This document shows, in pieces, positions 15,659-49,244 of a stretch of DNA of 64,000 nt (positions are counted from its first letter, which is position 1; each line of letters begins with the position of its first letter). Origin of the DNA: Cyanobium usitatum str. Tous. GTDB lineage: Bacteria > Cyanobacteriota > Cyanobacteriia > PCC-6307 > Cyanobiaceae. Both the position numbers and the translations under genes were made by a program. The stretch lies in the NCBI RefSeq assembly GCF_003011885.1, contig NZ_PXXO01000005.1:1-64000 (forward strand). The letters run 5' to 3'. Below the pieces are notes generated by a model. The model was not told the DNA's origin. It saw only the letters and a program-made list of their open reading frames with translations, and did not search any database.

Positions 15659-16066
15659 ATGCCGGATCCTTCCCCAAGGAAAGAGGAAAGGCACATCGTG
15701 CCCTCAATAAGCATGACAATTCAGATCGACTTTTATGTCGATCCGATTTCGTTTATTGGTCGCCTTTGGGATGTGAGCTCCTCTGGTGCCTGCCTGCTGT
15801 TTCCCATACGCGAGCCTGTAGTGCCTGGTTTGGTCGGCACCCTCACGATTCAACACCCCATCTTTGGCGATCCGATCCGGCTGCGGGCCAGTTCCCTCTG
15901 GGTCGATCGGCTGGAGTCAGCCTCCTATGTGGGGGTACGGTTTCTTGAAACCGTCGACTTCAACACCACCTTTTTGAAAGTGCTGATGCGCCGCAGCGGT
16001 GGCTATACGCCCGTGGGTAGTTTTGGCGATCTTCTCTCTGGCACGGCATTCGGCAGCTTCACTTGA
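15659..16066 (+). CDS. PilZ domain protein (putative c-di-GMP receptor)
   Basis: 135 aa, a single PilZ domain. The two c-di-GMP binding signatures are present: RKEER (RxxxR) near residue 8 and DVSSSG (D/NxSxxG) near residue 41, followed by the beta-barrel (LTIQHP...RLRASSLWVDR...YVGVRF). Such stand-alone domains couple cyclic-di-GMP to motility, adhesion or polysaccharide production. The next gene overlaps by 4 nt (TTGA) and encodes an exported protein, so the two are probably co-translated. The ATG at 15659 is used; the TTG just before it is less likely. Confidence 0.78.
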   Translation: MPDPSPRKEERHIVPSISMTIQIDFYVDPISFIGRLWDVSSSGACLLFPIREPVVPGLVGTLTIQHPIFGDPIRLRASSLWVDRLESASYVGVRFLETVDFNTTFLKVLMRRSGGYTPVGSFGDLLSGTAFGSFT

Positions 16067-16656
16067 GCAAGCAGCACCTTCGCCCAGCCCTGCTGATGAT
16101 CCTTGGGCTGGGCTGGCTGCTTGCCAACTCTGCCCAGGCCCTGCAGCGGCCGGTGGAGCCAGTAGCGGTCTGCGTGGTGACCCCCCGGGTGGAGCCGGTG
16201 ACAGAAGGGGATGCCATTGGCCTGGTGCCCACACCCATGCCCCTGCTCGTAGTGGTCGAACCTCTGCTGGAGCTCCGCATCGAGCGCCAGGGCCTGCTGG
16301 TTTGGCAGCAGCTTGCACCTGCCGGGCGCCCCTTCCGCGCACCCCTGGCCTGGCCCCTGGCCCCGATTGCCCCCGGCGAGGTGGTGCTGCTGCGTCTGAG
16401 ACCTGAGCAGGCGGCAGAGGGCAGCTTTGCCCAGGTGCAACTAGTGGGTGCGGACGCCGAGCGGATGGCCCGCACCGCGGCCCTGATCCTCTCCCTAGGC
16501 CAGAGCCCCCCTGCCTGGCTGGCAGCGATCGAAACGGCCCTGGAAGCTGGAGATGTGTCGCTGGCCTGGGCCCTGCTGTTTGAACCCCAGCTCCCCGATG
16601 CAGGCGATTTAGCCGCCCTGCGCAACGAGGTGGTGCGCAGGGGCTGCGGCGATTGA
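16063..16656 (+). CDS. Exported protein of unknown function, coupled to the PilZ gene
   Basis: 197 aa from a TTG at 16063 that overlaps the PilZ stop codon (TTGA). The N-terminus has a basic start (SKQHLRPALL), a hydrophobic core and NSAQA-L, a good Sec signal peptide. An ATG at 16096 is the alternative start but would lose the basic residues. The mature part is Pro/Leu-rich (PVEPVAVCVVTPRVEPV, PTPMPLLVVVEPLLEL) with a helical C-terminus. No family recognised. Overlap with the PilZ gene suggests a shared surface-related role. Confidence 0.6.
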   Translation: MSKQHLRPALLMILGLGWLLANSAQALQRPVEPVAVCVVTPRVEPVTEGDAIGLVPTPMPLLVVVEPLLELRIERQGLLVWQQLAPAGRPFRAPLAWPLAPIAPGEVVLLRLRPEQAAEGSFAQVQLVGADAERMARTAALILSLGQSPPAWLAAIETALEAGDVSLAWALLFEPQLPDAGDLAALRNEVVRRGCGD

Positions 16657-16677: not shown

Positions 16678-16691
16678 GGTACAGGTGTACT
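16678..16691 (+). promoter_or_regulatory. LexA (SOS) box upstream of the umuD-like gene
   Basis: GGTAC-AGGT-GTACT fits the GTAC-N4-GTAC core and, as I recall it, the published cyanobacterial LexA motif (RGTACNNNDGTWCB). It lies 36 nt upstream of the ATG at 16727, where a repressor would cover the promoter. The box overlaps an in-frame GTG at 16685, which argues for the downstream start of the gene. Confidence 0.75.
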
Positions 16692-16726: not shown

Positions 16727-17248
16727 ATGGCGAGCGATCTGATCTGGCTTGGTCCCTTGCAGCCAGCGCATCACGACCTCGAGCCCCTGCTCCTGCCCCT
16801 GGCCGGCGAAACCGTGGCCGCAGGCTTTCCCAGCCCTGCCGATGACTACATCGAGGCAACAATCGATCTAAATGGAGCCCTGATTCCGCGACCGAGCTCC
16901 ACCTTTTTGATGCGGGTAGACGGCGATGCCATGCGCGGAGAGGGCATTCATCACGGCGATCTATTAGTGGTCGACCGCAGTGTGGGTCCCCGTTCTGGCT
17001 CCATCGTGGTCGCCGTGAACGAGGGGCGCTTTCTGCTGCGGCGACTGGAGGGAACACCTCCCCATTGGCGCCTGGTGGCCAGCGATGCCACTAGCCCCGC
17101 CATTGCCTTGCAAGGCGGCGATCCCGACCTGCTGATCTGGGGCGTGGTGATCCATGCGGTACATCACCTCTGGAAGCCATCGCCGCAAGCGCGAGTCCGA
17201 GCAAGCGCTTTTAACCGTTCACCAGAAGCCTTTGGAATAAAGCCATAG
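16727..17248 (+). CDS. umuD: UmuD-like S24 peptidase homologue lacking the Ser/Lys dyad
   Basis: 173 aa, similar to UmuD, the SOS-induced subunit of error-prone polymerase V, normally activated by RecA-stimulated self-cleavage. The cleavage region is conserved (VAAGFPSPADDYIE, Ala32-Gly33), as is the S24 fold (FLMRVDGDAM, GDLLVVDRS, WGVVIHAVH). However, the catalytic serine of GDSM is Ala68 (GDAM, codon GCC) and the catalytic lysine (VKKL in E. coli) is Arg105 (LLRRL). Both catalytic residues are therefore changed and self-cleavage is not expected. No umuC is adjacent. A LexA box precedes it. The start at 16727 avoids overlap with that box. Confidence 0.85.
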   Translation: MASDLIWLGPLQPAHHDLEPLLLPLAGETVAAGFPSPADDYIEATIDLNGALIPRPSSTFLMRVDGDAMRGEGIHHGDLLVVDRSVGPRSGSIVVAVNEGRFLLRRLEGTPPHWRLVASDATSPAIALQGGDPDLLIWGVVIHAVHHLWKPSPQARVRASAFNRSPEAFGIKP

Positions 17249-47828: not shown

Positions 47829-49244
47829 TTGAACGCCAGTCCCCCCCCCCAACCCCGCCAGAACGCTGGATGGACCACTGGACTTGCCCTGCTGAGCCTG
47901 GTGCTCAGCGGCCTGCTTTGGATCACTGGCCTGGTGGACAGCCTGCAACGCCCATCTGTGGGCAATTCCCTGGAGCTGCGCCAACTGGAGCTGACCGCCC
48001 TGGCAGCACCAGCACTGCCGGCTGGCCTGCGCCAAGCCCTCACCGGCGCCAACCCCCTCGAGGCCCTGCGCCTTGATCTGCTGAAACAGTTAGATGGCAA
48101 TCCCGTGCCGCCAGCACCGCAGCAAGAGCTGCAACTAGCCCTCCTGGAGCTTCAGGCCGGCCAGGGAAGTGCGGCACGCCAGCGGTTGCAAGAGCTAAAC
48201 CAGCAGGTGCCACCTGAGCAGCGACTGCTGCTCAAGGCCCTGGTCGAACCAGCACCCAGAGCCGCCAGCCGCGACCCAGAGCAAGCGGCACAGGACCAAC
48301 TACTTCAGGGCTGGGGCCTGTCTCCCCTAAGCAGCCAACTGGTGTGCCAAGCCCTAAGTAATCCCCAAGTTGCTTGTGGAGATCGCGCCGCCCAGCAGGT
48401 AGCAGTGCTGCGCCTACTCGGAACCTCCGTACTGCCGATACTGCTGCTACTGCTGGGCTCAGCCCTGCTACTGCGCGAGCTGTGGCTGCGCTGGCGCGGC
48501 AAGGCAGCCCCGCCCGCCCCCCTGTTAGGTCCACCCCTCACCCTGGCGGAGGTGACCCTGCTGATCGCTGGCGGGTTCGTGGTGCTGGGCGAGCTGGTGA
48601 TGCCCCTTGTGCTGGCGCCGCTGCTGCAGGGGGTGCTTAAACCGTTGTCCAGCCAGCCTGCCCTGCAACAGGGATTGCTGGTGTTGGGCCTCTACAGCGG
48701 CTTGATGGCAGCGCCACTTGTTTTGTTGTGGAGCCAGCTGCGACCCCACGGACCCGGGCCCCAGGGGGGCTGGTTGCAGTGGCACTGGCGACCGCTGGCC
48801 AGTGCGCTGAGCCGAGCTTTGCTGCAGGTGTTGCTGGTGTTGCCGCTGGTAGCACTGGTGGGATGGCTGCTGGAGCGTTTGGTTGGCGATCCCGGTGGCA
48901 GCAATCCCCTGCTTGAGCTCGTACTCAACAGCGCCAATCCCCTTGCCCTGCTTTGTTTCGCCATCACTGCCCTGGTGCTGGCACCCCTATTTGAGGAAAC
49001 CCTTTTCCGGGGGGTGCTGCTGCCTGTGCTGGCCCAGCGCTGGGGGGGGCCTGCTGCAGTGGTGGTGAGCGCCCTGCTTTTTGGTATCGCCCACCTCAGC
49101 CTGGGAGAACTGCCACCTTTATTTGTGTTGGGGCTAGGGCTGGGCTGGCTCCGGCTGCAGAGCGGACGGCTCGGGCCCAGTGTGCTGATGCACAGCCTCT
49201 GGAATGGCCTCACCTTTGCCAATTTGTTGTTACTTGCTGGCTAA
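47829..49244 (+). CDS. CPBP-family intramembrane metalloprotease (CAAX/Abi type)
   Basis: 471 aa. The N-terminal third is a signal-anchor helix plus a helical periplasmic or cytosolic region. The second half has several membrane helices with the CPBP motifs FEETLFRGVLLPVL (EExxxR), LLFGIAHLSLG (FxxxH) and LMHSLWNGLTFAN (HxxxN). Families like this cleave prenylated or bacteriocin-type peptides or act in protein quality control; the target here is unknown. The start is a TTG at 47829. It lies upstream of the FtsL-like gene, with 108 nt between. Confidence 0.85.
   Translation: MNASPPPQPRQNAGWTTGLALLSLVLSGLLWITGLVDSLQRPSVGNSLELRQLELTALAAPALPAGLRQALTGANPLEALRLDLLKQLDGNPVPPAPQQELQLALLELQAGQGSAARQRLQELNQQVPPEQRLLLKALVEPAPRAASRDPEQAAQDQLLQGWGLSPLSSQLVCQALSNPQVACGDRAAQQVAVLRLLGTSVLPILLLLLGSALLLRELWLRWRGKAAPPAPLLGPPLTLAEVTLLIAGGFVVLGELVMPLVLAPLLQGVLKPLSSQPALQQGLLVLGLYSGLMAAPLVLLWSQLRPHGPGPQGGWLQWHWRPLASALSRALLQVLLVLPLVALVGWLLERLVGDPGGSNPLLELVLNSANPLALLCFAITALVLAPLFEETLFRGVLLPVLAQRWGGPAAVVVSALLFGIAHLSLGELPPLFVLGLGLGWLRLQSGRLGPSVLMHSLWNGLTFANLLLLAG

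Follow-up and report, generated by a model that had tools for sequence, protein, structure and literature searches.

SOS mutagenesis depends on the cleavage of UmuD as its licensing step, and the locus described here raises the question of what is left to do for a UmuD homologue that has kept the site to be cut and lost the residues that cut it. The gene lies in a window of 64,000 nucleotides (the whole stretch of DNA analysed), on contig C21; the genome measures 2.5 Mb, is 99.8% complete and is placed by its named relatives in the Cyanobium/Synechococcus family. The original prediction had claimed that both catalytic residues are replaced (Ser by Ala and Lys by Arg) and that the Ala-Gly cleavage region and the fold are conserved. 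Both claims were borne out: when the dyad positions were assigned by aligning the window protein with the solved E. coli UmuD/UmuD', Ala68 and Arg105 fell on Ser60 and Lys97 within an intact ORF, Ala32-Gly33 was found to be kept, and the modelled core matched the UmuD' fold. Proteins with this pair of replacements are referred to as the A/R form. The features concerned are the following:

16678 to 16691, plus strand: LexA box GGTACAGGTGTACT, with no mismatch to RGTACNNNDGTWCB, located 49 bases upstream of the ATG.
16727 to 17248, plus strand: umuD-like gene, the putative A/R substrate half; intact ORF, matches to PF00717 and NF007621, A/R orthologs in 49 genomes.
16820 to 16825, plus strand: scissile pair Ala32-Gly33 (VAA-GFPSP), predicted from P1/P1' conservation and a dN/dS of 0.03-0.06 over residues 30-50.
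16928 to 16930, plus strand: codon GCC for Ala68, which replaces the nucleophile Ser60 in the alignment with the E. coli UmuD structures; Ala in every A/R ortholog.
17039 to 17041, plus strand: codon CGG for Arg105, which replaces the general base Lys97 in the same alignment; Arg in every A/R ortholog.
17174 to 17245, plus strand: C-terminal tail, residues 150-173, unconserved (dN/dS 0.6-1.0; pLDDT <50).

The ORF runs from the ATG at 16727 to a stop codon ending at 17248 (173 codons, 173 amino acids). A longer version could begin at GTG 16685; since this codon overlaps the LexA box and the relatives retain the ATG, the latter is the likely start. The window protein scored 77 bits against Pfam Peptidase_S24 (PF00717), 121.6 bits against the NCBIfam model NF007621, "Pol V autoproteolytic subunit" (above the cut-off of 110), and 76 bits against the HumD model NF051876 (below the cut-off of 120), while profile searches with Pfam and NCBIfam gave no match to a DNA-binding domain or HTH. 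In the AlphaFold model of a single A/R chain, the core was predicted with values of 81-89 (10-residue blocks, residues 61-130), and arm residues 14-51 stayed below 50 and have no bearing on arm placement. The top Foldseek matches of the modelled core were 1ay9, 1umu and 8gmt, all of the UmuD' fold. The protein thus shares with UmuD an S24 domain without an HTH and an arm with a scissile X-Gly before FPSPA (its context reads VAAG-FPSPADDY), but it has Ala68 and Arg105 where UmuD has its Ser-Lys catalytic dyad, and its gene is not in an operon with umuC, which is found on another contig. By a strict membership test on the sequence it is not an autoproteolytic UmuD, since the dyad is absent; it probably works together with a UmuD of the autoproteolytic type. 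Immediately upstream of the gene, a 197-aa ORF (16063-16656) had no match in Pfam or NCBIfam.

The source genome encodes four S24 proteins, namely the window protein, LexA (with its Ser/Lys dyad present), a UmuD linked to umuC and a third paralog. The earlier remark that no umuC stands alongside the gene holds locally, but one umuC copy exists elsewhere, at C12:146334, directly after the second UmuD; the idea of a genome without a second umuD or umuC is therefore wrong, as the proposed search recovered both on C12, adjoining each other. This umuC-linked UmuD (L003/L005) has its dyad intact as Ser44 and Lys81, with GESM and FTLKRL present, and the umuC match starts 10 bases on. When its sequence was read, both GFPSP and the Ala-Gly site were found to be absent. 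It begins approximately at the start of the folded domain, is shorter than UmuD' and is without even the UmuD' arm. Near the front of the armless frame, neither the window genome nor its close relatives (L005 1050-1150, L043, L036) showed an ATG or GTG, and TTG codons are the only start candidates there; a possible start, M-G-V-D-L-N, is present in several g6 genomes. The armless protein is predicted to fold well (AlphaFold mean 81), yet it reaches only 37 bits against NF051876 (cut-off 120) and scores below the cut-off of NF007621. A homologue passing the "autoproteolytic" database model may thus be a pure substrate, with its active partner falling below that cut-off.

The third paralog (C21:155117-155392, L004, outside the window) lacks a GFPSP site, has its dyad positions occupied by Gly and Arg, and is preceded by a LexA-box-like site. 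It was found in seven of the 16 genomes of the genus, in one of them with Arg replacing Ser, and is possibly a dominant-negative subunit.

Concerning regulation, a LexA box with at most one mismatch was detected upstream of 41 of 47 A/R genes and of 35 of 39 genes binned as site-less Ser/Lys, and the entire 64 kb window holds five sites at this threshold. Given LexA boxes before both halves, both should be damage-inducible. A second exact match in the window, at 48420-48433 (GGAACCTCCGTACT), is probably due to chance, as a large ORF (47829-49244) encloses it.

At least one umuC match was obtained in each of the 16 genomes of the genus. Twelve of them carry the A/R UmuD together with an armless Ser/Lys UmuD at umuC. 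The remaining four (G011-G014) lack an A/R copy, and their umuC is accompanied by a single ordinary UmuD that combines the site with Ser/Lys. In a wider survey, in which 300 family genomes were searched and the sequences then read, the split layout was seen to extend to g6, g31, g47 and g59, and an A/R copy was also present in one g23 genome. The A/R pair is no sequencing slip, for it recurs in 12 of the 16 genus genomes and in other genera. An armless Ser/Lys UmuD was read directly beside umuC in 46 of the 49 A/R genomes sampled, neither form was present in any of the 28 undivided genomes sampled, and the armless form alone was found in no sampled genome. The co-occurrence of the halves (Fisher p ~6e-18) is descriptive only, because the genomes share ancestry and, with a single duplication probably behind all cases, the counts are not independent. 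The two halves are far apart in most groups; in most g47 genomes both lie within ~0.9-1.4 kb of umuC, with A/R upstream. One genome (G008; 120 contigs, 3% contamination) encodes two A/R UmuDs (L007 and L022), 97% and 74% identical to the window protein. UmuDs sampled outside the family have Ser/Lys, with one exception described below. A phage or plasmid origin was rejected, given that all phage and plasmid matches were below 60% identity and the best 80 UmuDs from viral contigs were Ser/Lys in 80 of 80.

The origin of the pair was addressed with a UmuD tree of 160 sequences and 106 columns. The armless copies group into a single clade (support 99/95), and A/R and the third paralog together make up another (100/98), within which A/R alone is weak (80/37). 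Both of these clades are nested among the ordinary UmuDs of the family, and masking of the dyad left the two groups unchanged. The simplest history is thus that both halves derive from an ordinary UmuD by one duplication with complementary loss; several separate A/R origins within the family are not needed, even with the weak support for A/R alone. On this view, the duplication would have affected an ordinary UmuD with site and Ser/Lys, adjoining umuC, in some ancestor inside the cyanobacterial family. One copy would have remained at umuC, retaining Ser/Lys but losing its entire N-terminal arm together with the cleavage site. The other, now the window gene, would have moved elsewhere, its arm and site preserved and its two catalytic residues replaced. 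Later losses or transfers must also have occurred, as g1 and g31 include both split and undivided members.

Selection on the A/R form is uneven along the protein. Among close orthologs dN/dS was 0.11 for the arm, 0.06 for residues 30-50, 0.14 for the core and ~1.0 for the C-terminal tail, and in the wider A/R set the respective values were 0.36, 0.03, 0.13 and 0.61. At P1, Ala was found in 45 of 47 A/R sequences, in 28/28 ordinary UmuDs and in 70/70 named Ser/Lys loci; P1' is Gly in all 47 A/R sequences. The LPLAxExV stretch of the arm, upstream of the cut site, is also conserved. Insertion into UmuC would by itself be enough to conserve the residues following the cut (GFPSPADDY), with or without cleavage, so that it is P1 and the upstream residues that carry the argument. 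Their conservation would be expected only with continued cleavage of the site or a function of the uncut arm. For their part, all armless partners read have retained Ser and Lys despite missing a site of their own.

A division of labour between the two UmuD genes is well supported by these sequences, and we infer from it a heterodimer, RecA-assisted cleavage in trans, an asymmetric Pol V and possibly a braking phase before cleavage. In split genomes an arm can come only from the A/R protein and a UmuD-type protease only from its partner, and each probably needs the other for error-prone repair to be switched on. Upon DNA damage, LexA would release both UmuD genes, and the A/R protein would form a heterodimer with the armless partner. 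With the pair on the RecA filament, the partner's Ser/Lys would cut the A/R arm in trans at Ala32-Gly33. The new Gly33 end (GFPSPADDY) would then be inserted into UmuC, the armless partner filling the other UmuD' position to give an obligatorily asymmetric Pol V. We consider it likely that the window gene encodes one of two halves into which UmuD has been split in nature, the pair cleaving in trans and yielding an asymmetric Pol V. As to whether this is an obligate three-gene Pol V, consisting of an armless UmuD for protease and docking only, a dead UmuD as substrate and arm donor only, and UmuC, we lean slightly towards an affirmative answer; if so, activation would depend on two separately transcribed genes and only one inserted arm would be possible.

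There are precedents for the individual steps. In a 1998 study of intermolecular cleavage by UmuD-like proteins, a cleavage-site mutant reportedly complemented a catalytic-site mutant. E. coli UmuD heterodimers form preferentially, and in a heterodimer that depends on RecA:ssDNA an active, arm-shortened UmuD cuts the S60A variant in trans (PMC5342242). In a 2025 structural model of Pol V, one UmuD' arm is near the UmuC active site and the other is exposed, and armless UmuD' is cited there as forming dimers yet being defective in mutagenesis (PMC11791011).

Some genomes appear to lack the usual partner. In G073 and G123 (L157, L170) umuC has no umuD or recognisable remnant upstream, and the only UmuD found is an A/R form with Thr at P1, before which no LexA box was detected; an armless UmuD was not found in these assemblies, which are 89% and 77% complete, respectively. 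G037 (62% complete) has an A/R form with P1 Ala, and no armless partner was read in it. Taking these genomes together with the two dead UmuDs described next, P1 is usually altered where no Ser/Lys partner was found, whereas every genome with a partner read has Ala there. The altered P1 as evidence that the site is uncleavable is weakened by the finding of P1 Thr in 6 of the best 80 viral Ser/Lys UmuDs, suggesting that a site with P1 Thr may be cleavable. Two further, unrelated dead UmuDs were encountered. Synechococcus lacustris (L111/L221) has a single one beside umuC, with Ala/Lys at the dyad, hardly any arm, Gly at P1 and Gly-Gly where the cleavage site used to be, which looks like a naturally pre-cut dead UmuD'. 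In Cyanobacteria bacterium SZAS LIN-3 (L126/L223) a dead UmuD with Gly/Arg, P1 Val and a very short arm directly precedes umuC, and the sole other S24 match in this 6.8 Mb genome resembles LexA.

Of the three roles originally offered for the gene (a brake, a partner cleaved in trans, or a new role), the trans-cleaved partner fits best, because the other UmuD of the genome has an active dyad and has lost its own arm; a simple brake explains less. As a brake, the A/R protein would never be cut, and the full-length subunit would hold the armless UmuD inactive or pass it to ClpXP. Such a handover takes place in E. coli, where full-length UmuD delivers the UmuD' of the UmuD-UmuD' heterodimer to ClpXP through a ClpX signal in its arm (PMC5342242), and both the conserved LPLAxExV and a partner already shorter than UmuD' would be in agreement with it. 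However, it accounts neither for the retention of Ala at P1 and Gly at P1' nor for the constant Ser/Lys of the armless partners, and it does not tell where the arm of UmuC would come from if the armless copy has none. We thus find it rather unlikely, though braking may be valid before cleavage, as the first phase of the split-UmuD model.

That LexA or some other protease, and not the armless UmuD, makes the trans cut in the A/R protein is very unlikely. A Ser/Lys LexA is encoded in the genome, and G073 (in which LexA was read) and G123 seem to combine A/R with umuC only, but the split tracks the armless copy and not LexA, the co-occurrence is left unexplained, and these two A/R-only genomes are precisely those with a changed P1. 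A new role outside Pol V, for instance as a regulator like Acinetobacter UmuDAb, would suit a gene that lies at a distance from umuC and whose product bears a lineage-specific C-terminal tail; with no DNA-binding domain matched, the tail unconstrained and A/R presence tracking armless UmuD and umuC, it appears highly improbable. The loss of both catalytic residues could also be taken as the mark of a functionless, decaying duplicate, a reading with a practically negligible chance that was rejected: it is contradicted by conservation, as 49 genomes keep the A/R form, the promoter box is kept and core dN/dS is 0.13-0.14, falling to 0.03-0.06 around the cleavage site. The original argument for selection over decay is upheld by the same data.

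Cleavage in cis or in trans, and the question of which arm of the dimer enters UmuC, have previously been approached by means of engineered mutants and models; with the roles separated on two natural genes, both questions become testable with wild-type proteins. A 2016 survey reports umuD as duplicated in Cyanobium gracile PCC6307 and gives the copy number (PMC5101192). No earlier account of a split UmuD pair was found in a literature search whose coverage left out most subscription journals.

Regarding known systems, the cyanobacterial pair resembles E. coli UmuD/UmuD' of Pol V in fold, LexA control, the GFPSPA(D/A)DY arm, the scissile -Gly and the umuC link, but E. coli UmuD is protease and substrate in one protein, whereas here these roles would be distributed over two genes, with A/R as the substrate. 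HumD of phage P1 is a UmuD' type made without a cleavable N-terminus. The partner gene is similar in missing that N-terminus; it differs in having not even the UmuD' arm, and both cyanobacterial proteins score below the HumD cut-off. The design also resembles that of the engineered heterodimer of UmuD S60A and an arm-shortened UmuD (delta18), likewise composed of a nucleophile-less substrate and an enzyme without a usable arm (PMC5342242). That heterodimer is a laboratory construct cut in trans with RecA:ssDNA, while the cyanobacterial pair is natural and occurs in five genera; moreover, its substrate has both dyad residues changed and its enzyme half is entirely armless. In the PPB2 duplications of PolB2 mutasomes, an accessory subunit is likewise duplicated, with one copy bearing a polymerase-entering arm and the other without it, but the protein is unrelated and involves no protease or cleavage step (PMC11791011). 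Finally, LexA of Synechocystis is another cyanobacterial protein of the LexA/UmuD fold without the residues for archetypal LexA activity (PMC3744912); it is a transcription factor with a different role, whereas the window protein keeps its cleavage site and has an active partner.
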